64,000 nt of DNA from an uncultured Bacteroidota bacterium (lineage in GTDB: Bacteria > Bacteroidota > Bacteroidia > Flavobacteriales > Flavobacteriaceae). Each line of letters opens with the position of its first letter. Position 1 is the stretch's first letter. The stretch is from positions 1-64,000 of the forward strand of contig CACJQM010000004.1 in assembly GCA_902595555.1 (NCBI GenBank). The letters are read 5' to 3'. The translations under genes and the position numbers were made by a program. Below the pieces are notes generated by a model. That model made no database searches, had not been told where the DNA came from, and was given only the letters and a program-made list of their open reading frames with translations. Below are positions 49,187 to 58,965 of this stretch, piece after piece.

Positions 49187-50419
49187 TTATACAAAATCGA
49201 TGGAAAAATTGAGTTTTTCTAAGATATTCCAAAATTCTGGAAATGATTTTGAAACAACTTTTGGATCTTTTATCTCGATTGGAAAGATCACAGAAAGAGG
49301 GGCAAATGCAAGGGCCATTCTATGGTCATCATATGTGTTTATAATGTAATTTTTATTTAATTTATTTGATTTAAAAAACTCTATTGATTCATCATCAATA
49401 ATGCAACTAGCACCAAGATTAGTAAGCTCATTCCTTAGAGCTTCAATTCGATCTGTTTCTTTTACTTTTAAAGTTGATAGTCCTGTTAGTTTTGTTGGAA
49501 TATTGAGTCCATAAGCAGTAACAATTATAGTCTGTGCCAAGTCTGGATTATCTTTTAGGTCAATTATAATTTTTTCAGGATAGTTAAAATCAGTTCTCTT
49601 TTTTATAATTAGTTTACCATTTTGAAATGTAGTTTTAACACCAAATAATTCATAATACTTACAAACATTAATATCACCTTGAAAACTATCTTTTCTAAAA
49701 TTTAAAAATGATAGTTCAATATTTTTAGAAAGGGCAACTATTGAAAAAAAATAAGATGCTGAGGACCAGTCTGCCTCTACTTTATATTCAGTATTAATTA
49801 TCTCATCTTTTTTAGGTTTAATAATAATTGTATTATCATTGAATTTTGCATATATACCAAGCTTATTTAGAATGGAAAGTGTCATGTCAATATATGGTCT
49901 TGATGTAATATTTCCATCTAGTTCAATAACTAAACCATTATCTAAACTAGGAGCAATAAGCATAAGTGCACTTATATATTGGCTACTTACATTAGGCTTT
50001 AATTTTACTTTATTTTTTAGATTTTTACAGCCGATTATTTCAATTGGTGGAAAACCTTCATTTCCAATATAGTTAATATTAAAACCTAAATCATTTAAAG
50101 CCTTAACCAAAATACCAATTGGTCTTTCATTCATTCTTTTTGAACCACTTAAATGAAACATTTTATTTTCTAGGGTTGCTAGATATGCTGTTAAAAATCT
50201 CATAGCAGTTCCTGCATGACCAACATTTAAATTAAAATCTGTACTATTTAAATTTTTTTCTAAAATTTTAGTATCGTCAGATGAGGACAAATTTATTATA
50301 GATATATTTTGGAATATCGATTTAAGAATTAATACTCTGTTAGATTCACTTTTTGATCCACTTATGATAATTTCGTCTAAAGATTTTATATGAGATCCAT
50401 TGAGCAGAACCTTTTTCAT
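49187..50419 (-). CDS. aroA: 3-phosphoshikimate 1-carboxyvinyltransferase (EPSP synthase)
   Basis: Sixth step of the shikimate pathway, joining shikimate-3-phosphate and PEP. In 410 residues the two-domain inside-out barrel motifs are visible: GSKSESNR near 22-29 (substrate-binding Lys, Ser and Arg), GHAGTAMRFLTAY (PEP site), DWSSASYFF, and the C-terminal TYDDHRMALAFA. The sequence is divergent from enterobacterial AroA but all key charged residues are present. It overlaps the MazG-like gene by 4 bp. The other shikimate genes apart from the DAHP synthase are not in the window. Confidence 0.94.
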   Translation of the reverse strand: MKKVLLNGSHIKSLDEIIISGSKSESNRVLILKSIFQNISIINLSSSDDTKILEKNLNSTDFNLNVGHAGTAMRFLTAYLATLENKMFHLSGSKRMNERPIGILVKALNDLGFNINYIGNEGFPPIEIIGCKNLKNKVKLKPNVSSQYISALMLIAPSLDNGLVIELDGNITSRPYIDMTLSILNKLGIYAKFNDNTIIIKPKKDEIINTEYKVEADWSSASYFFSIVALSKNIELSFLNFRKDSFQGDINVCKYYELFGVKTTFQNGKLIIKKRTDFNYPEKIIIDLKDNPDLAQTIIVTAYGLNIPTKLTGLSTLKVKETDRIEALRNELTNLGASCIIDDESIEFFKSNKLNKNYIINTYDDHRMALAFAPLSVIFPIEIKDPKVVSKSFPEFWNILEKLNFSIDFV

Positions 50420-50742
50420 TTTAGTTTTTTATTATTGATGTGTCTAGTCTTATCTCTTTTAGATTTTTTTTTCATTTTTTCACTGAATGATTTCTCTAAG
50501 TCAACTCCAGTTTGATTAGCAAGACACAGCAAAACAAATAGCACATCCGCTAATTCTTCACCTAAATCTTCAACTTTTTCTCCCTTTTTTGAGGTTTGCT
50601 CACCATATTTTCTAGATATTATTCTAGCTACCTCACCAACCTCTTCAGTTAGTTGGGCCATATTTGTTAATTCATCAAAATACCTAACTCCATATTTCTT
50701 AATCCAATCATCTACTTTCTTTTGTAAGCTGTTTAATTTCAT
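50416..50742 (-). CDS. MazG-like nucleotide pyrophosphohydrolase
   Basis: A 108-residue all-alpha NTP pyrophosphohydrolase with the Mg-binding pattern LTEEVGEVARII (about 30-41) and DLGEELADVLFVLLCLAN (about 59-76). Such enzymes hydrolyse non-canonical or excess dNTPs to the monophosphate. Single-domain MazG-like proteins of this size form tetramers. The role in an aromatic-amino-acid operon is unexplained, but it and dtd, next to it, are both quality-control hydrolases. It overlaps neighbours by 4 bp on both sides. Confidence 0.9.
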   Translation of the reverse strand: MKLNSLQKKVDDWIKKYGVRYFDELTNMAQLTEEVGEVARIISRKYGEQTSKKGEKVEDLGEELADVLFVLLCLANQTGVDLEKSFSEKMKKKSKRDKTRHINNKKLK

Positions 50743-51191
50743 AATTTATTTTTTGTATCTATTAAAATTGTTACTGGACCATCATTTTCAAGTTCGACTT
50801 TCATATCCGATCCAAATTTACCAGTTTTTGGAGTTACTCCATGCTGATTTTTAAATTCTAATAGAAAATTATTGTAAATCTCTTCTGCTTTATCACCCTT
50901 GGCAGCATTAATATATGATGGTCTATTACCTTTTTTGGTTTGGGCGTGTAATGTAAACTGGCTTACCACCAATAACTCTCCCCTTATATCAATTATTGAT
51001 TTATTCATAACTGATTTATCATCATTAAAAACCCTAAGATTCAATATTTTTCTTACCAACCACTTAATATCATCAATATCATCGTTATGAGTTATTCCCA
51101 CTAGAACTACCAAGCCAGTTTTAATTTTACTAAATACCTGTTGATCAATTCTTAACTTTGCAAAATTGACTCTTTGAATAACCGCTTTCAT
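50739..51191 (-). CDS. dtd: D-aminoacyl-tRNA deacylase
   Basis: Proofreading enzyme that removes D-amino acids (classically D-Tyr) and glycine mis-attached to tRNA. 150 residues. The catalytic segment SQFTLHA is at 77-83, and the C-terminal cis-proline motif is NDGPVTILID. Its place directly inside a tyrosine/phenylalanine biosynthesis operon is suggestive, since D-Tyr-tRNA is the founding substrate. It overlaps the MazG-like gene by 4 bp and follows rsgA by 3 bp. Confidence 0.95.
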   Translation of the reverse strand: MKAVIQRVNFAKLRIDQQVFSKIKTGLVVLVGITHNDDIDDIKWLVRKILNLRVFNDDKSVMNKSIIDIRGELLVVSQFTLHAQTKKGNRPSYINAAKGDKAEEIYNNFLLEFKNQHGVTPKTGKFGSDMKVELENDGPVTILIDTKNKL

Positions 51192-51194
51192 ACT

Positions 51195-52115
51195 TTAATG
51201 TCGATAATTATTATTGATTTCGGATAAAAGTTCAACGTAATTATCATATCTAGATTTTGAAATATCTCCTTTACTAACTCTATCCTTGACTTCACATCCA
51301 GGCTCTTCTAAGTGTAAACAATTATTAAATTTACAGCTTCTAAGTAAGGTGAACTCTTTAAAGAAATCCCTTAATTCACTATTCTTAACATCATAAAGTC
51401 CAAAACCTTTAATACCTGGTGTATCAATTATTCTAGAGCTGAAATTAAGGTCATACATCTCAGAAAAAGTAGTAGTATGTTGGCCTGATAAATTTGATTC
51501 GGAAATAGGAGAAGTTTTAATATTAATACTAGAATCTAGTTTGTTAATTAAAGTAGATTTACCTACTCCACTATGACCCGAAAAAACACATGATTTATTA
51601 ATCATGATTTTTTTAAGTTTATCAATGTTAATATTTTTTTTTCCAGAGATCTCAATACAATCATAACCAGCCTTCTTATAAATTGAGATGAAATTATTTA
51701 GTTCTTTTTTTTCTTCCTTCTCAATTTGATCAATTTTATTAAATAATAAAACAGTTTCAATATTATATGAGAACGTTGAGGCTAAAAACCTGTCTATGAA
51801 CATTGTTGATGTCTCTGGGTTTTTAATAGTAATTATTAAAAAACATAAATCAATATTGGATGCTATTATGTGGTATTGCTTTGAAAGTTTGACAGATTTT
51901 CTGATTAAATAGTTATGTCTATCATTAATTTGTTCAATTTGTGGAGTTTGGTTTTCAGTTATTTTAACAACTACGTTATCTCCTACGCATACAGGATTGG
52001 TTGATTTTAAATTTTTTGTTCTAAATTTTCCAAACAATTTACAATCTACAAATTCTCCATTTTCTAACTTGACTTTATACCAACTACCTGTAGATTTATA
52101 AACTATTCCTAACAT
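51195..52115 (-). CDS. rsgA: Ribosome small-subunit-dependent GTPase RsgA
   Basis: Circularly permuted GTPase that checks late 30S maturation. An N-terminal OB-fold (about 1-70) is followed by the GTPase domain with G4-like LLFNKIDQ, then G1 GHSGVGKSTLINKL and G3 DTPGIKGFG, the permuted order typical of RsgA. A C-terminal zinc knuckle C-x4-C-x-H-x5-C is present (CKFNNCLHLEEPGC). I use the ATG at 52115 rather than the adjacent upstream TTG. It forms a TGATG overlap with the preceding gene. Confidence 0.95.
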   Translation of the reverse strand: MLGIVYKSTGSWYKVKLENGEFVDCKLFGKFRTKNLKSTNPVCVGDNVVVKITENQTPQIEQINDRHNYLIRKSVKLSKQYHIIASNIDLCFLIITIKNPETSTMFIDRFLASTFSYNIETVLLFNKIDQIEKEEKKELNNFISIYKKAGYDCIEISGKKNINIDKLKKIMINKSCVFSGHSGVGKSTLINKLDSSINIKTSPISESNLSGQHTTTFSEMYDLNFSSRIIDTPGIKGFGLYDVKNSELRDFFKEFTLLRSCKFNNCLHLEEPGCEVKDRVSKGDISKSRYDNYVELLSEINNNYRH

Positions 52116-53197
52116 CAACCTTTTAAAATTTTTTCCTGGTGATTAATTGACTCTTGATGGATGGCTTTAAAAATTTTTAATACAAATTCTTCACTTAGTC
52201 CTCTTTCCTTACCCTCTAAAATCATTTTTCCCAGAATTTCATTCCATCTTTTAGATTGTAGAATAGCAACATTTTCTTTTTTCTTTAGCTTACCAATATC
52301 ATCAGAAATTTTCATTCTTTTTCCTAAAATATTTAATATATCATTATCAGCAGAATCAATTTTAGTTCTCAATTTTTCTAAATTTTTTAAATAATCTTCT
52401 TGGTTAACACTCTGCTTTCTTAATTTAAGTTCTTTCATTAACTGAATTAGTTCAGCAGGTGTAATTTGTTGAGCTGCATCACTCCAAGCATTGTCTGGAT
52501 CTATATGTGATTCAATCATTAATCCATCAAAATTTAAATCCAATGCCTTCTGAGAAATGTCATGTATTAAATCTCTCCTTCCACATATGTGAGATGGATC
52601 ACAAATCAATGGTAAATCTGGAAATCTATTTTGGAGTTCAATAGCTATTTGCCATTCAGGATTATTCCTATACTTTGATTTAGTGTATGAAGAAAAACCT
52701 CTGTGAATTACACCTATCTTTTTGATATTAGCTGAATATAATCTTTCAATTCCACCATACCATAAGGATAAATCAGGGTTTACAGGATTTTTTAATAAGA
52801 CTATCTTATCAGTACCTTTGAGTGCATCAGCAATCTCTTGTACTATAAATGGACTAACTGTAGATCTTGCACCGATCCAAAGTACATCGATATCATTTTC
52901 TAAAGCTAGTTTTACATGATTTGAATTAGCAACTTCTGTTGTTGTTAATAGTCCTGTTTCTTCCTTAACTTTTTTTAACCACTTTAATCCTATTGCACCA
53001 ACTCCTTCGAACATTCCAGGTCTTGTTCGAGGTTTCCAAATTCCAGCCCTAAAGATTGAAACATCTGAGTCCTTCAAATTGTGAGCAATAGATAGAACTT
53101 GCTTTTCAGTTTCAGCACTACAGGGACCAGCAATAACTAATGGGTGATTCAAATTAAAATCATCAAGCCATGTTCTGAGTTTCTTATTATTTTTCAT
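52115..53197 (-). CDS. Bifunctional DAHP synthase / chorismate mutase
   Basis: A 360-residue fusion: residues about 10-260 form a type I-beta (KDO8P synthase-like) DAHP synthase, seen in PLVIAGPCSAETE, WKPRTRPGMFEGVG, LLKNPVNPDLSLW and PLICDPSHICGRR. About 270-355 form an AroQ-type chorismate mutase helical domain, with LEKLRTKIDSADNDIL and AILQSKRWNEIL. In such fusions the mutase end also serves as feedback sensor for prephenate/chorismate. It joins the first step of the shikimate pathway to the branch to Phe and Tyr. The gene sits third after pheA in the operon and overlaps tyrA by 11 bp. Confidence 0.95.
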   Translation of the reverse strand: MKNNKKLRTWLDDFNLNHPLVIAGPCSAETEKQVLSIAHNLKDSDVSIFRAGIWKPRTRPGMFEGVGAIGLKWLKKVKEETGLLTTTEVANSNHVKLALENDIDVLWIGARSTVSPFIVQEIADALKGTDKIVLLKNPVNPDLSLWYGGIERLYSANIKKIGVIHRGFSSYTKSKYRNNPEWQIAIELQNRFPDLPLICDPSHICGRRDLIHDISQKALDLNFDGLMIESHIDPDNAWSDAAQQITPAELIQLMKELKLRKQSVNQEDYLKNLEKLRTKIDSADNDILNILGKRMKISDDIGKLKKKENVAILQSKRWNEILGKMILEGKERGLSEEFVLKIFKAIHQESINHQEKILKG

Positions 53198-54050
53198 TTT
53201 TATTATTTATTCCCCCTAAAATTTTTTTTACTCTATTAATATTGTTTAAATCATCAATTATGGATTCTTTATCATCATTCTGAATTTTAACTTTTAAGTC
53301 ATTTAAATTATTAATATACCCTTCTAATGCCTCTACTAAATTAGACTTGTTTTGTAAAAAAATTGGTGTCCACATAAATGGTGAGCTCTTTGCAAGTCTT
53401 ACAGTTGATTCAAATCCACTACCAGCTAAATCAAAAATATTTTTTTCATTTTTTTCTTTTTCAATAACTGTTTTAGCCAAAATAAAAGAAGTTACATGAG
53501 ATAAATGAGAAACATATGAAATATGCTCATCATGAGAACTTGGATCCATATATATAATTTTCATTTCAAAATTATTTAATATTTTCATCACCTTTTTCAG
53601 CAAATTAGAATCAGTTTTATCAACTTCACATAAAATATTTGTAATTCCATGATATAGACCACTAACAGATGCATTTGGACCACTGTTTTCCGTTCCTGCA
53701 ATTGGATGCATTGCTAAAAATTGCTTTCTATTTTTATGATTGGAAACTCCTTCACATATTTTTAATTTTGTGGAGCCAACATCAACAACTATTGTGTTTT
53801 CTCCTACTTTATCAAGTATATTCGGCAAAATATTAATGGTTTCATCAACTGGTACAGAGATTAGTAATAAATCTATATTAGAAATATTATCATCGTCAAG
53901 TTTAAAATCAATTAGTTTTAAATCAAATGACATCTTTAAATGTTCGTCCGATTTATCAAAACCATAAATAACAAATTCTTTAAACCTTTCTTTTACATCT
54001 AGAGCGAAAGAACCTCCCATCAGTCCCAAACCAATTATTCCTATATTCAT
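53187..54050 (-). CDS. tyrA: Prephenate dehydrogenase
   Basis: NAD(P)-dependent oxidative decarboxylase that converts prephenate to 4-hydroxyphenylpyruvate for tyrosine synthesis. 287 residues, with Rossmann motif GLGLMGGSF near residues 7-15, VDVGSTK, the catalytic-His region AMHPIAGTENSGP, and SHLSHVTSFILA. There is no C-terminal ACT or mutase domain, as the mutase is fused to the DAHP synthase downstream. Its start directly abuts the aminotransferase stop. Confidence 0.95.
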   Translation of the reverse strand: MNIGIIGLGLMGGSFALDVKERFKEFVIYGFDKSDEHLKMSFDLKLIDFKLDDDNISNIDLLLISVPVDETINILPNILDKVGENTIVVDVGSTKLKICEGVSNHKNRKQFLAMHPIAGTENSGPNASVSGLYHGITNILCEVDKTDSNLLKKVMKILNNFEMKIIYMDPSSHDEHISYVSHLSHVTSFILAKTVIEKEKNEKNIFDLAGSGFESTVRLAKSSPFMWTPIFLQNKSNLVEALEGYINNLNDLKVKIQNDDKESIIDDLNNINRVKKILGGINNKNEK

Positions 54051-55190
54051 CTATAACCTTTTTAAAGCCTCATTTAATTTTTTTTCATCACAACACAAAG
54101 ATATTCTAACGTAACCCTCTCCATTTGAACCAAATATGGAGCCAGGTGCAATGAAAATATTTTTTTGATATAGCAATTCATCAACAAAATCTTCAGAAGT
54201 TTTAAATTCATCAGAGATTTTTCCCCAAACAAAAAGACCTGATCCTTTATCATCAAACTTTAAGTTTAGTTTTTTACAGATTTTAACTACAATTTTTTTT
54301 CTGTCTTTATAAATATTATTTAAATCTTTATACCAGCTCTTATCTTGATTCAAAGCATCAACAGCTCCAAGTTGTATTGGTAAAAACATTCCTGAATCCA
54401 TATTTGACTTAATCTTTAAAATATTGTCGATGTTTTCTTTTGAACCAACCACCATTCCTAATCTCCAACCAGCCATATTATGTGATTTACTCAAAGAATT
54501 TAGTTCTAAGCAATTCTTGCTTTTTTTTGCCATTAGTAAACTAACCGGATTTTCATTAAGAATAAAACTATATGGATTATCATTTATAAGTAAGATATTT
54601 TTTTCCTCACAAAATGAAATCAAATCATTAAAAAAGGATAATGAACAATTTGAACCAGTTGGCATATTTGGATAATTTACCCACATAATTTTGACTTTTG
54701 ATAAATCCATTTTTTTAAGCTTCTCGAGATTTGGAAGCCATGAATTTGATTCACTCAATTCATAATATTTAGGTTTAGCTCCAACTATCTTAGAAACTGA
54801 GGTATAGGTGGGATATCCAGGATTTGGTATAAGAACTTCATCACCCGTGTCAAGAAAAGCCAAAGATATGTGCATTATTCCCTCCTTGGACCCAATCAAG
54901 GGTAGTATTTCCTCATTATGATTTAGTTCAACATTGTAATTATTTAAATAAAAACTCTTTATCGCTAACCTGAGTGATTCTATACCTTTATAACTTTGGT
55001 ATTTGTGGGCTATTGGTGATTCTAATGCTTGTATTAAACTATCAGTAGTTGATTTTGGTGGCATAATGTCTGGACTGCCAATGCCTAAATTAATAATAGG
55101 ATTTCCCTTTATAATTAAATCCCCAACCTCTTTTAATTTTCGAGAGAAATAATATTCTTGTATGTGTCCTAATCTTTTTGCTGTCTTCAT
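54051..55190 (-). CDS. Class I/II aminotransferase of the aromatic operon
   Basis: PLP enzyme of 379 residues with Schiff-base Lys235 in NSLSKSHNMAGWRLG, the NYPNMPTGS loop (172-180) and NDNPYSF. Between pheA and tyrA, the obvious role is the final transamination of phenylpyruvate and 4-hydroxyphenylpyruvate to Phe and Tyr. Related LL-diaminopimelate aminotransferase-like enzymes share the fold, so DAP synthesis is an alternative. It overlaps pheA by 4 bp. Confidence 0.9.
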   Translation of the reverse strand: MKTAKRLGHIQEYYFSRKLKEVGDLIIKGNPIINLGIGSPDIMPPKSTTDSLIQALESPIAHKYQSYKGIESLRLAIKSFYLNNYNVELNHNEEILPLIGSKEGIMHISLAFLDTGDEVLIPNPGYPTYTSVSKIVGAKPKYYELSESNSWLPNLEKLKKMDLSKVKIMWVNYPNMPTGSNCSLSFFNDLISFCEEKNILLINDNPYSFILNENPVSLLMAKKSKNCLELNSLSKSHNMAGWRLGMVVGSKENIDNILKIKSNMDSGMFLPIQLGAVDALNQDKSWYKDLNNIYKDRKKIVVKICKKLNLKFDDKGSGLFVWGKISDEFKTSEDFVDELLYQKNIFIAPGSIFGSNGEGYVRISLCCDEKKLNEALKRL

Positions 55191-56008
55191 TGAGATTTAT
55201 AGTTACTGTATACACCAAATTCTTTTACTAATTCAGATTCTAATGACACCTCATCAATAGCTTTTTTATATTTATTAAAATCTGAAAATGTAGTGTCTAT
55301 AAAAAATGAATATTTCCATGGTGTTTGAATAATTGGAATAGATTGAATCTTAGTGAGATTTAATCCATAATTAGCTAAAATATTTAAAATATTAGCAAGA
55401 CTTCCATTTTTATGACTAAGTACAAATTTTAAAGAGGCTTTATTAAATTCTTTTGTAATTGCATTATCAACTGTTTTAGAAACAACTACGAATCGTGTTT
55501 CATTGTCTTTGATTGTTTGGATATTTGTTTCGATGATTTCTAGTCCATACATCTCAGCGGCTTCTGTCCCGGCAATTGCAGCAGTATTAAAAACTTTTTC
55601 ATCCATAATTCTTTTTGCTACCTGTGCAGTATCTTTATCCTCTACTATAATTTTATCTGTTTTTTTTAAAAAATCTTTACATTGAAGAAGTGCCATTGGA
55701 TGAGATGCAATATTAGTAATTTCATTAAATGAAACGCCAGGATATACCATTAAATTATGATGTATGTTAATATAATATTCACCTATTATAAACAAACCAT
55801 TATCATCAATTAACGAATAGTTGGGAATAATAGATCCAGCTATAGAGTTTTCAATCGCCATTATCCCATAATCACTCAATCCCTGTGAGGTTGAATCAAC
55901 CAACTCATCAAAAGAAAGGCATTCAATTATATCAATTTGATCATCAAAAAGTTCTAATGCCACCTTATGGTGATATGACCCTCTTATACCTTGAATTGCA
56001 ACTTTCAT
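55187..56008 (-). CDS. pheA: Prephenate dehydratase
   Basis: Converts prephenate to phenylpyruvate, the committed step to phenylalanine. The 273 residues have an N-terminal catalytic periplasmic-binding-like domain (IQGIRGSYHHKVALELF, NSIAGSI, TRFVVVS with the conserved Thr-Arg-Phe) and a C-terminal ACT domain (from about 190: GSLANILNILANYGLNLTKIQS) that gives feedback inhibition by Phe. It lacks the chorismate mutase domain of E. coli PheA. It is the first gene of the operon, and its ATG lies 3 bases after the U-run of an intrinsic terminator, so expression depends on read-through of that attenuator. Confidence 0.96.
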   Translation of the reverse strand: MKVAIQGIRGSYHHKVALELFDDQIDIIECLSFDELVDSTSQGLSDYGIMAIENSIAGSIIPNYSLIDDNGLFIIGEYYINIHHNLMVYPGVSFNEITNIASHPMALLQCKDFLKKTDKIIVEDKDTAQVAKRIMDEKVFNTAAIAGTEAAEMYGLEIIETNIQTIKDNETRFVVVSKTVDNAITKEFNKASLKFVLSHKNGSLANILNILANYGLNLTKIQSIPIIQTPWKYSFFIDTTFSDFNKYKKAIDEVSLESELVKEFGVYSNYKSQ

Positions 56009-56011
56009 AAC

Positions 56012-56041
56012 AAAAAAAAAGTCCTGAAAATCAGGACTTTT
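56012..56041 (-). terminator. Intrinsic terminator/attenuator in front of pheA
   Basis: On the minus strand an 11-bp perfect stem AAAAGTCCTGA / TCAGGACTTTT (56041-56031 with 56027-56017) with a TTT loop is followed by a run of nine T (56020-56012, partly within the stem). The run ends 3 bases before the pheA ATG. It lies about 150 bp beyond the end of the upstream barrel-protein gene but directly against pheA, so it fits an attenuator better than a plain terminator. The 5' arm can alternatively pair with 56080-56071. Confidence 0.88.
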
Positions 56042-56063
56042 ATATTAATTTTTTCTTTAATTA

Positions 56064-56138
56064 TTAACAAAAAATCCTGTTCTTACTGAAAAAGTAAAAG
56101 AAAAAATAGAATCTGTTGCTATAATATTTGTTTAACAT
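56064..56138 (-). CDS. Phe/Tyr-rich leader peptide of the pheA operon
   Basis: A 24-codon reading frame from ATG 56138 to TAA 56064 encodes MLNKYYSNRF followed by YFFFYFFSKNRIFC. Eleven of 24 residues are Phe or Tyr, including FYFFFYFF at positions 10-17. It precedes the attenuator of an operon that makes exactly these two amino acids. The 3' codons (AAC AGG ATT TT) form the segment that can pair with the terminator's 5' arm. A ribosome stalled on the F/Y codons would leave that segment free (antitermination), while one reaching the stop would mask it (termination). A possible promoter TTTG-N19-TATTTTTA (56174-56144) would put the transcript start at or near this ATG. Function is inferred from architecture. 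Confidence 0.85.
   Translation of the reverse strand: MLNKYYSNRFYFFFYFFSKNRIFC
56071..56080 (-). promoter_or_regulatory. Antiterminator segment in pheA leader
   Basis: Minus-strand ACAGGATTTT (56080-56071), inside the last codons of the leader peptide. Its CAGGA plus TTTT can pair with TCCTG and AAAA of the terminator 5' arm (56041-56032) leaving one bulged G, nine pairs in all. This is mutually exclusive with the terminator stem. A small upstream stem, TTACT/AGTAA at 56097-56083, could act as pause hairpin. Confidence 0.7.
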
Positions 56139-56193
56139 TTGCCTAAAAATAGTACAGTATTTTATATCTGCAAAATAATTTTACCAAAAAAGG

Positions 56194-58965
56194 TTATCTC
56201 AATCTACCTCCACCTCTGTTGCCTCTAGGTCTAGGGTTAGATGGTGCTTTACTCTGATTAGCATCTTCTTTATCCTTTCCACCGAAAAGGGTCAGGTCGT
56301 ATTTTAGCTTAAACAGAATATATCTAGGTTGAATTACATACATTCTAGTCTGTGAGAAAAACTGATTGAAAGAGTCCCTGTTGATTGATTGATCATTTAA
56401 TAAATTAGTCACTCCTACACCAAATTCCCACTTGGATCCCTCCTTATTGTATGAAAGATCAGCATCTAGAAATCTGAATTTGTTTAATGTTTGAGTTTCG
56501 TTTTTATATGAATTATAGCTGTATTCGGCTGTCAATACAAAACCTTTACCAAAATAAGCATCTAAACGAGCAAATGGAGATTCTGTGATAAATTTATTCT
56601 CTAAGCCTCCATTATCATATTCGTTAATATTGTATTTATAGCCAAATTCAAAATTGGGCTTATCTCTAAAGTTTGTTTCTATACTTAATGAATAATTTTG
56701 ATTCAAACTGTTAGAATTAATTGATTGATCATTAATAACATTTGTAAAATCACTGTAATTAAATCTTGTACTGGCATTTAATTTGAAATTCTTAAATCTC
56801 TTATCAATTCTTCCACTAACGGAGTATGTTTCTCTTGGGAATATGGAATTGGTTGAAGTCCTTACAGCATTAATTCCATCAATACTTGCTCTGGACTGAA
56901 TTGAGTTACTTCTCTTTGAATAACTTGCATTTGCAAAAATATTGGTAAATGTAAATTGATTAATACTTCTGTAGTTCATGTTATAAGTATTTACAACAGC
57001 TGATTCTAATTCTCTGTTACCTTTAAATATGCTATTATAATTATTAAAAACATATCCCTCTGCTAAATTGTTAACGTCAGTAAATTGAGTATTTTTTCTG
57101 TAAGTCAATCTCAAGCTTTCAGTCTTTTTAAATTGGAAATTAATCCTCAGATTTGGTCTTATATCACTAATATTTGTTTCAGATGTTGAACCTAACTGAG
57201 TTGTACCTGTTTTGTAAAAATGTAAGGTTAAGCCGGGGTCAAAAGTAAAGATTCCTGTTCTCAACCTGTAGTTTAATGCTACATAAGCGTCACTAAAATC
57301 AAAATTAACCTCATTATTAAATAATGCATCGTTAAAGTTAAGTTGTGAGCCATTATCAAGTATCTGAAAAAAACTAGAATCAAAATCCTGACTTACATCA
57401 GTAACACCTAAACTTAAATTAATATTTGATGTATCATTTAATAAGTAATAATAATCGAGTTTTGCTTCGAGTTTAGCAGTATTAACTAGTCTTTCCTGAG
57501 TTATATCATATTTATTTTGAGTGGAATTAAAAGGAATAAGTCTGGTAAAAGGATTTCTATCTCTAATTGCTCTATTAAAAGGATTTTCTTCTTGGTCCAA
57601 GTGTTGAGCTTCAAATGAAAATATATGATCTTCATTTAATGTGAAATACATTTTAAATTCTTGATTTAATGATTGAGGTTTTTGTGATCTTGTTATATCC
57701 AAAGTTTCCTGTAATCTATTATTTTCTCTACCATACATTGATGTTAAATCATTATTCTCATACTGATCAGATTGATTTAAAAGTATATTATATTCTAATT
57801 GGAATACTTCACTAGGCTCATACTCTACACTAAACTTATACAACTCCAATTCATTTTCTTGGAGAGAAAATTCACTTGTATTTTCTACAGCATTTGTAGC
57901 TATATATGTTCTGTCGATTTGTTCTTCAAGTTCATTTGTAGTTGATGAGTGAACAGTAAATCCAGAAATTTCCAAACCTTTATCATTACTGACTGTAAAG
58001 TTGGTTGCGGTCAGTTTAGAGTCGATTGATTTTGCTCTGTTATTACTTAAACTTCCCAATCCAGCAAGGTCAGAACCAATATTAATTGATGTACCTGTTC
58101 TTCCATTCAAATTACCAAATCCTCCAGAAAACCTGTAAAAATCTCTCCTTGATAAGGGTGGTTGTCCAATGTCATTTGAGTTAGCAATAACACTGAAATT
58201 AAAATTTGGTGCGTAATAAAATATTTTTGGTGCAACTAAATGAATATCATCAGGGCCAGTACCAGCTAAAATTTCTCCAAACCAAAATTTATCCTTACCC
58301 TCTCTTAACCTAATATTTATTGCAAAACTGTCTTCGTTATTTTGAACACCACTTAACTGACCAACTTCTGTAAAGTTTCTTAAAACTTCAATCTTTCCAA
58401 CTGCCTTTGCAGGCAAATTTTGGGATGCCAATTTCGTATCACCATCAAAAAAGTCTTTACCTTCAATTTGAATTTTTCTAACTTCTTGTCCTTCCACCTC
58501 AATCCTACCATCTTCATTAACTTCAACGCCTGGAAGATTCTTTAGTACATCTGCTAACTTCTTTTCAGTACCAGTGTTGAATGCATCAGCACTGTAAACT
58601 ATCGTATCACCTCTTATCTCAACTGGCATTTCATATACAATTTCAACTGCATCAAGTGCCTCAGATTGTTCTTCCAAAACAAAATCTTTTACAGTATCAT
58701 CTGATAGAGTGGTATTAAACTCAATTGGCTTAAAACCAATGAAAGTTATTTTAATATTAAACTCAGTTCCATTTTTAAGATTGATACTGAAATATCCATT
58801 TTCATTTGAGATACCAAATCCGTCAAGCACACTGGTTTCATTGTTTACAGCGATTACATTAGCTCCCATTATGGGGTATCCTGATTGATCTTTTATTGAA
58901 CCGCTTAAACTTGATTGTGAAAATAAATAGACTGGAAGAAAAAGTAAAAGTAAAATATATCTCAT
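56194..58965 (-). CDS. Outer-membrane beta-barrel protein, TonB-receptor-like
   Basis: A 923-residue protein with a signal peptide (MRYILLLLFLPVYLFSQ), a carboxypeptidase-regulatory-like Ig domain (about 20-105: SLSGSIKDQSGYPIMGANV), a plug-like domain (about 120-220: KKLADVLKNLPGVEVNEDG, VRKIQIEGKDFFDGD) and a large barrel (about 230-890). It resembles the flavobacterial outer-membrane barrel proteins paired with GLPGLI genes. No TonB box is obvious. The C-terminus is an Asn/Pro/Gly/Arg-rich tail ending RLR. I start at the ATG at 58965, right after the GLPGLI stop, since the upstream frame extension lies inside that gene. Ligand unknown. Confidence 0.86.
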   Translation of the reverse strand: MRYILLLLFLPVYLFSQSSLSGSIKDQSGYPIMGANVIAVNNETSVLDGFGISNENGYFSINLKNGTEFNIKITFIGFKPIEFNTTLSDDTVKDFVLEEQSEALDAVEIVYEMPVEIRGDTIVYSADAFNTGTEKKLADVLKNLPGVEVNEDGRIEVEGQEVRKIQIEGKDFFDGDTKLASQNLPAKAVGKIEVLRNFTEVGQLSGVQNNEDSFAINIRLREGKDKFWFGEILAGTGPDDIHLVAPKIFYYAPNFNFSVIANSNDIGQPPLSRRDFYRFSGGFGNLNGRTGTSINIGSDLAGLGSLSNNRAKSIDSKLTATNFTVSNDKGLEISGFTVHSSTTNELEEQIDRTYIATNAVENTSEFSLQENELELYKFSVEYEPSEVFQLEYNILLNQSDQYENNDLTSMYGRENNRLQETLDITRSQKPQSLNQEFKMYFTLNEDHIFSFEAQHLDQEENPFNRAIRDRNPFTRLIPFNSTQNKYDITQERLVNTAKLEAKLDYYYLLNDTSNINLSLGVTDVSQDFDSSFFQILDNGSQLNFNDALFNNEVNFDFSDAYVALNYRLRTGIFTFDPGLTLHFYKTGTTQLGSTSETNISDIRPNLRINFQFKKTESLRLTYRKNTQFTDVNNLAEGYVFNNYNSIFKGNRELESAVVNTYNMNYRSINQFTFTNIFANASYSKRSNSIQSRASIDGINAVRTSTNSIFPRETYSVSGRIDKRFKNFKLNASTRFNYSDFTNVINDQSINSNSLNQNYSLSIETNFRDKPNFEFGYKYNINEYDNGGLENKFITESPFARLDAYFGKGFVLTAEYSYNSYKNETQTLNKFRFLDADLSYNKEGSKWEFGVGVTNLLNDQSINRDSFNQFFSQTRMYVIQPRYILFKLKYDLTLFGGKDKEDANQSKAPSNPRPRGNRGGGRLR

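Follow-up and report, generated by a model that had tools for sequence, protein, structure and literature searches.

Upstream of pheA we find what is very probably a classical ribosome-mediated transcription attenuator, one that would sense charged Phe-tRNA and Tyr-tRNA and thereby control an operon encoding PheA, an aminotransferase, TyrA and a DAHP synthase/chorismate mutase. The locus lies within a 64,000-nucleotide stretch of DNA, which we refer to as the window. We observe directly the parts of this device, the alternative ways in which they pair, how they are spaced and how they are conserved through matched changes. Ribosome-mediated Phe/Tyr attenuation of pheA had been proposed in an initial annotation of this DNA, and the proposal is supported by conservation, matched change and operon content, while the regulation itself is what we infer from them.

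The gap upstream of pheA is 185 bases long, has a G+C content of 21%, and is read on the minus strand between 56194 and 56008. The genes that surround it are as follows.

End at 56194, minus strand: outer-membrane beta-barrel protein gene, upstream neighbour of the pheA gap
55187-56008, minus strand: pheA, prephenate dehydratase with an ACT domain (Pfam PF00800, PF01842), ATG at 56008
54051-55190, minus strand: class I/II aminotransferase (Pfam PF00155)
53187-54050, minus strand: tyrA, prephenate dehydrogenase (Pfam PF02153, PF20463)
52115-53197, minus strand: DAHP synthase fused to chorismate mutase (Pfam PF00793, PF01817)
49187-50419, minus strand: aroA, EPSP synthase (Pfam PF00275), further downstream in the same gene run

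Neighbouring genes of the pheA run overlap or almost touch, so that transcription proceeding beyond the leader plausibly supplies the whole Phe/Tyr branch. The Pfam content of the four genes from pheA to the DAHP synthase/chorismate mutase agrees with the earlier claim that the operon makes Phe and Tyr, which fits the codons of the leader. Behind the aromatic genes, the same tight run (49187-52118, minus strand) encodes, by Pfam, RsgA, a D-Tyr-tRNA deacylase, a MazG-type protein and aroA.

Within the gap, the elements of the putative attenuator are arranged in this order.

56144-56175, minus strand: predicted Bacteroidota-type promoter, with TTTTG at 56175-56171, 19 nt, and the -7 box TATTTTTA at 56151-56144
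56064-56138, minus strand: leader ORF MLNKYYSNRFYFFFYFFSKNRIFC, 24 codons with 11 Phe/Tyr, ATG at 56138 and TAA at 56066-56064
56102-56121, minus strand: segment 1, which in RNAfold pairs with 56084-56065 to give a possible protector hairpin
56088-56111, minus strand: sensor run FYFFFYFF, leader codons 10-17, an aromatic run kept in relatives and the predicted stall site
56070-56079, minus strand: segment 2, antiterminator 5' strand CAGGATTTTT, a 10-bp match to the terminator 5' arm
56032-56041, minus strand: segment 3, terminator 5' arm AAAAGTCCTG, common to antiterminator and terminator
56012-56041, minus strand: intrinsic terminator by sequence and fold, with an 11-bp stem and 3-nt loop (56041-56017) and nine U (56020-56012)

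The short ORF that precedes the operon is rich in codons for the operon's products, and its 24 codons, its eleven Phe/Tyr and the run at codons 10-17 (56111-56088) were all found where the initial annotation had placed them. Of all ORFs in the window that begin with ATG and span 15-45 codons (523, both strands counted), the leader ORF has the longest uninterrupted Phe/Tyr run (8 residues; the runner-up has 4). No ORF with a Phe/Tyr run of at least 8 arose in 20,000 dinucleotide shuffles of the gap, and at least 11 Phe/Tyr in at most 24 codons arose in three of them.

Between the leader ORF and the first gene, sequence and fold place an intrinsic terminator whose U-run stops 3 nt short of the pheA ATG (56008); the 11-bp stem and the position of the U-run had both been called correctly. 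The antiterminator 5' strand CAGGATTTTT covers leader codons 20-23 and pairs with AAAAGTCCTG (56079-56070 with 56041-56032) over 10 bp that include one G-U. This pairing had also been recognized, with its 5' strand placed one base away, at 56080-56071. The two alternatives are almost balanced in RNAfold: the antiterminator region folds at -12.5 kcal/mol and the terminator at -12.9 kcal/mol. In the equilibrium fold of the free RNA, the terminator forms for every ribosome position from codon 2 to codon 25, such that stall sites are not discriminated; any switch must therefore depend on the order of synthesis and on the ribosome. Ribosome footprint sizes are taken from work in E. coli, and we assumed a footprint reaching about 11 nt past the A-site codon. 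Under this assumption, segment 2 is fully free when the ribosome stalls at codons 10-15 and just free at codon 16, and a stall at codon 17 already covers its first bases. The range of codons 10-17 originally given for stalls that leave the segment free thus holds for codons 10-16, with codon 17 leaving it partly covered. In 112 elements, the first base of segment 2 lies between -31 and +8 nt relative to the stop codon, with a median of -13, a position that in general fits the further suggestion that a ribosome at the stop covers the antiterminator segment. By this geometry, and with the same assumed footprint, a ribosome at the stop codon would cover segment 2 and a ribosome on the sensor codons would leave it free.

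This arrangement points to a mechanism in which a ribosome trails RNA polymerase while the leader is transcribed. Were Phe and Tyr ample, the ribosome would reach the stop codon (56066-56064) and cover segment 2 (56079-56070), so that the terminator hairpin could form and transcription would end at about 56012, short of pheA. Were either amino acid scarce, the ribosome would halt in the aromatic run (codons 10 to about 16) and leave segment 2 free to pair with the terminator 5' arm before the 3' arm exists, and the polymerase would then continue into pheA, the aminotransferase, tyrA and the DAHP synthase/chorismate mutase. We infer the stalling, the termination and the response of termination to Phe and Tyr from the sequence.

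We searched for PheA relatives and found them in 72 of 100 near relatives, in 258 of 296 genomes across the phylum and in 31 of 119 across the class, along with 12 loci in further genome contigs. From these, 162 distinct upstream regions were examined: 70 from near relatives, 67 from the phylum (mostly better-scoring matches), 17 from the class and 8 from the further contig loci. A strict rule asked for an ATG-initiated ORF of 12-45 codons with an aromatic run of at least 4 (Trp counted) and at least 6 aromatic residues, whose stop lies close to a hairpin that has a stem of 6 bp or more and a U-run. It was passed by 114 of the 162 regions, compared with 1 of 1,620 shuffled regions. The initial annotation had named close relatives as the place to check for the run and the stems, and the aromatic run and terminator are kept there, in all 19 genus genomes with a PheA match and in 59 of 62 examined genomes from other genera of the family. 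The average leader of the 114 elements is 23.8 codons long and contains 5.1 Phe, 3.8 Tyr and 0.4 Trp. Within the genus, the codons of the run vary between TTT and TTC and between TAT and TAC, with exchanges of Phe and Tyr and a few replacements by other residues such as Ser, Ile or Val.

Among the 48 regions that failed the strict rule, 16 were judged by eye to carry the element (L035, L036, L055, L058, L065, L077, L078, L113, L130, L131, L138, L139, L142, L217, L222 and L229), their failure being due to an interrupted run, a long loop or a broken U-run. Carriers that can be named include Arenibacter (L035-L037) and Cochleicola gelatinilyticus (L040); two of the Arenibacter regions, L035 and L036, miss the rule because a single Asn interrupts the run. 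In the remaining regions of the 48, the element appeared by eye to be lacking or doubtful. These include two small genomes of 0.6 Mb (L075, L076) and three with a distant PheA (L079-L081). In four f22 regions that failed (L105, L106, L109, L112), the sequence before pheA resembles by eye the coding sequence of the preceding gene, apparently aroA in three of them. Outside the class, 6 of 9 examined genomes fail the strict rule. The aromatic leader element extends beyond the Flavobacteriaceae into further families of the order and of the class Bacteroidia.

The terminator arms of these elements vary widely (GUCCUG, GUCCCG, GUCUCG, GCCUCG, AUCCCG, GACCGCU, ACCCGG, CCUCCGG and more), and segment 2 varies together with them across genomes, which is the covariation of alternative stems that the initial annotation had suggested looking for. 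In 113 elements, the summed duplex energy of segment 2 with its own arm is -1256.6, compared with -813.5 +/- 24.1 over 10,000 swaps, the best of which reached -906.7. The own arm outperforms the average of the others in 108 of the 113 elements and is the single best of all arm types in only 27, partly because G-U pairs allow similar arms to cross-match. When relatedness was limited by taking one element per distinct arm (n=44), the energies were -480.7 and -304.0 +/- 15.1, and 0 of 20,000 permutations did as well. Segment 2 can form a helix of 5 bp or more, three or more of them G-C, in 112 of 114 elements, compared with 669 of 3,420 trials in which the segments were shuffled. An antiterminator that excludes the terminator is therefore conserved through matched changes. 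In four members of the genus (L009, L010, L016, L082), the stop codon of the ORF precedes segment 2, and AGGATTTTTTG (GGGATTTTTTG in L016) persists there as non-coding RNA, which argues that this sequence is held as RNA and not as peptide. These four loci are a natural separation of the coding role from the structural one.

Segment 2 may also be engaged on its other side. The RNAfold structure of 56138-56060 (-9.9 kcal/mol) would hide segment 2 if the leader were untranslated. Pairing of segments 1 and 2 across 112 elements is stronger for own than for swapped partners (-1402.1 and -1133.2 +/- 27.8), and with 43 representatives 0 of 20,000 permutations were as good. For the window itself, the duplex of segments 1 and 2 (-4.4) is weaker than the mean of its swapped duplexes (-9.0).

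The same comparisons bear on other explanations of the gap. The upstream outer-membrane gene (end at 56194) lies on the same strand, such that the hairpin could be its plain terminator and the aromatic ORF a chance frame in A+T-rich DNA. A plain terminator has no role for a matching segment 2. Across genomes the run and hairpin are retained, although by eye the DNA further upstream varies within the genus; conservation and matched changes thus speak strongly against this reading, as do the chance tests with shuffled ORFs and shuffled regions, and we consider it scarcely credible. T-boxes, riboswitches and RNA-binding proteins are devices that regulate amino-acid genes in other phyla. The gap could likewise harbor such a sensor, whether a tRNA-binding T-box, a riboswitch or the site of a regulatory protein, with the ORF incidental, and T-boxes as regulators of amino-acid genes are also treated in PMC1262725. 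This reading would leave the aromatic run, which is kept across genomes, without a part to play; no T-box or riboswitch is among the 7 Rfam matches that the window sequence gives at E up to 1, and we regard such a sensor as very improbable.

Somewhat less remote, though still unlikely in our estimation, is a role for the hairpin chiefly in translation, in which it would block ribosome entry at the pheA start 3 nt away and the leader ribosome would decide whether it forms. Between the end of the U-run and the pheA ATG lie 0-5 nt in every one of the 19 genus sequences and 0-11 nt in 15 of 45 other elements, and the mRNAs of Bacteroidota are described as being without Shine-Dalgarno sites, with initiation tuned by mRNA structure (PMC6847099). 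Set against this, a U-run after the hairpin is a requirement of a terminator, although its presence in the counted elements is not independent evidence since it belonged to the search rule. In the other 30 of the 45 elements, 13-68 nt separate the U-run from pheA, a distance that fits termination better than occlusion. The spacing in the genus makes occlusion of the pheA start possible as well, and the commoner spacing elsewhere favors termination, that is, the ribosome-mediated transcription attenuator.

The predicted promoter of the leader bears on how ribosomes would load. The -7 box TATTTTTA has one mismatch to TAnnTTTG and lies 5 nt upstream of the leader ATG; both this consensus and its position at -12 to -5 are given in PMC9723704. 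A box at -12 to -5 would put the predicted transcript start 0-3 nt before the leader AUG. When the last ATG before the run is taken, all 19 genus sequences have a box with at most one mismatch, plus an upstream TTG, at 4-7 nt upstream of the leader ATG (17 of 19 with the longest ORF); among base-shuffled controls, 133 of 3,800 do. One mismatch is present in 7 of the 19 boxes, the window's included. Elsewhere, a perfect box with TTG was found in 25 of 95 other elements, at 11-34 nt in 22 and at 5-7 nt in 3. As a control in the window, 1 of 51 mechanical ORFs has an exact box and TTG within 60 nt, too few to inform. We therefore predict that the pheA leader mRNA of the genus is nearly leaderless and that ribosomes would load almost at its 5' end. 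Leaderless mRNAs are a minority in flavobacteria, making up 5.5% in F. psychrophilum (PMC9723704), and in F. johnsoniae 87% of the predicted transcripts carry leaders longer than 10 nt (PMC6847099).

Other amino acid operons of the genus appear to carry sister leaders. One feature comes from the window's own genome (G000, contig C3).

L184:2105-2046, minus strand: Trp-codon leader ORF MKLKNQNLCWWINSNKLLH with a terminator before trpE

By eye, a box TATATTTG lies 4 nt upstream of the ATG of this trpE leader, which looks nearly leaderless like the pheA leader. Tandem Trp codons and a hairpin are visible by eye in 14 of 15 trpE loci of the genus, three of them apparently GTG-started (L175, L180, L187); the fifteenth (L179) is cut by a contig end and shows the hairpin alone. 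In these incomplete assemblies, 6 of 23 genus genomes gave a hisG match, that of the window not among them, and all six loci (L150-L155) show by eye a short His-containing ORF and a hairpin before the gene. No leader passed the filter used before ilvD (19 loci) or homoserine dehydrogenase (10 loci) of the genus; the latter is often part of a long ORF, such that the gene start may fall outside the scanned flank, and the filter is not exhaustive, since five of the six hisG leaders and three trpE leaders recognizable by eye did not pass it.

The enterobacterial pheL encodes a leader peptide before pheA, together with a terminator. The element described here resembles this pheA leader (pheL, Rfam RF01859) in having a leader peptide and a terminator before pheA, and differs from it in its mixed Phe/Tyr run, in the presence of tyrA and DAHP synthase in the operon and in its predicted near-leaderless mRNA. 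At gathering thresholds, the window element has no match in Rfam. In a search by E-value, the window aligns with RF01859, Phe_leader, over the full model (1-125; E 8e-4) at 31.9 bits, which is below the gathering score of 55. At E up to 0.5, the model matched one of eight pheA loci of relatives (L044, 29.4 bits, E 0.32). The weak match may reflect shared U-richness rather than descent. Separately, a Flavo-1 RNA (RF01705, 85 bits) lies inside the pheA locus of one relative (L089:551-630, minus strand).

Another parallel comes from Flavobacterium psychrophilum, for which a 2021 study (PMC9723704) described strong clues for leader-peptide attenuation before amino acid biosynthesis operons, and also 5' elements before pheA and hisG that are present in other genera of Flavobacteriaceae and have no Rfam match. 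Likened by description, its pheA 5' element and the one reported here share the gene, the bacterial family, a structured character and the lack of an Rfam match. Conservation of that element was described for genera of the Flavobacteriaceae (PMC9723704), whereas the element here reaches further families of the order and class. In mechanism and anatomy, the device is also like the leader-peptide attenuators described in Proteobacteria, Actinobacteria and Firmicutes by Naville and Gautheret in 2010 (PMC2965389) and Seliverstov et al. in 2005 (PMC1262725), from which it differs in phylum; the main text of PMC2965389 has no word starting with Bacteroid or Flavobacteri. Among the matches listed for the open-access literature, no study was dedicated to leader-peptide attenuation in Bacteroidota. 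Vitreschak et al., writing in FEMS Microbiol Lett in 2004, reportedly predicted some attenuators in Bacteroidetes/Chlorobi. For Bacteroides thetaiotaomicron, there is a single remark on sORFs reminiscent of leader peptides (PMC7366714). The initial annotation's remark that Bacteroidota offer few described cases is thus fair within the open-access literature, though a pheA 5' element in Flavobacteriaceae was already in print (PMC9723704). What is already known is the kind of mechanism, along with a hint of its presence in flavobacteria (PMC9723704). New here are the anatomy of the element and its matched changes, its occurrence throughout much of the class Bacteroidia, and the prediction of a near-leaderless leader mRNA.

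We see an even chance that these observations reflect a ribosome-mediated aromatic attenuator that the class Bacteroidia as a whole has kept by vertical descent. In the genus it would stand beside Trp and His leaders, and the mRNAs of the Phe/Tyr and Trp leaders would be nearly leaderless. Ribosome-mediated attenuation requires a ribosome that keeps up with RNA polymerase. If this broader reading is true, the coupling of transcription and translation in bacteria without Shine-Dalgarno initiation would be tight enough for the position of a ribosome to decide termination. A conserved set of attenuators in Bacteroidota, whose mRNAs are without Shine-Dalgarno sites, would then be natural genetic evidence for coupling and a source of ready reporters. 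As an element without an Rfam match at gathering, it could also aid the annotation of aromatic operons and of hidden short genes within a major group of marine and soil bacteria. For the marine bacterium itself, in a phylum little studied for this mechanism, the switch very probably allows the Phe/Tyr operon to be expressed only when Phe or Tyr runs short.
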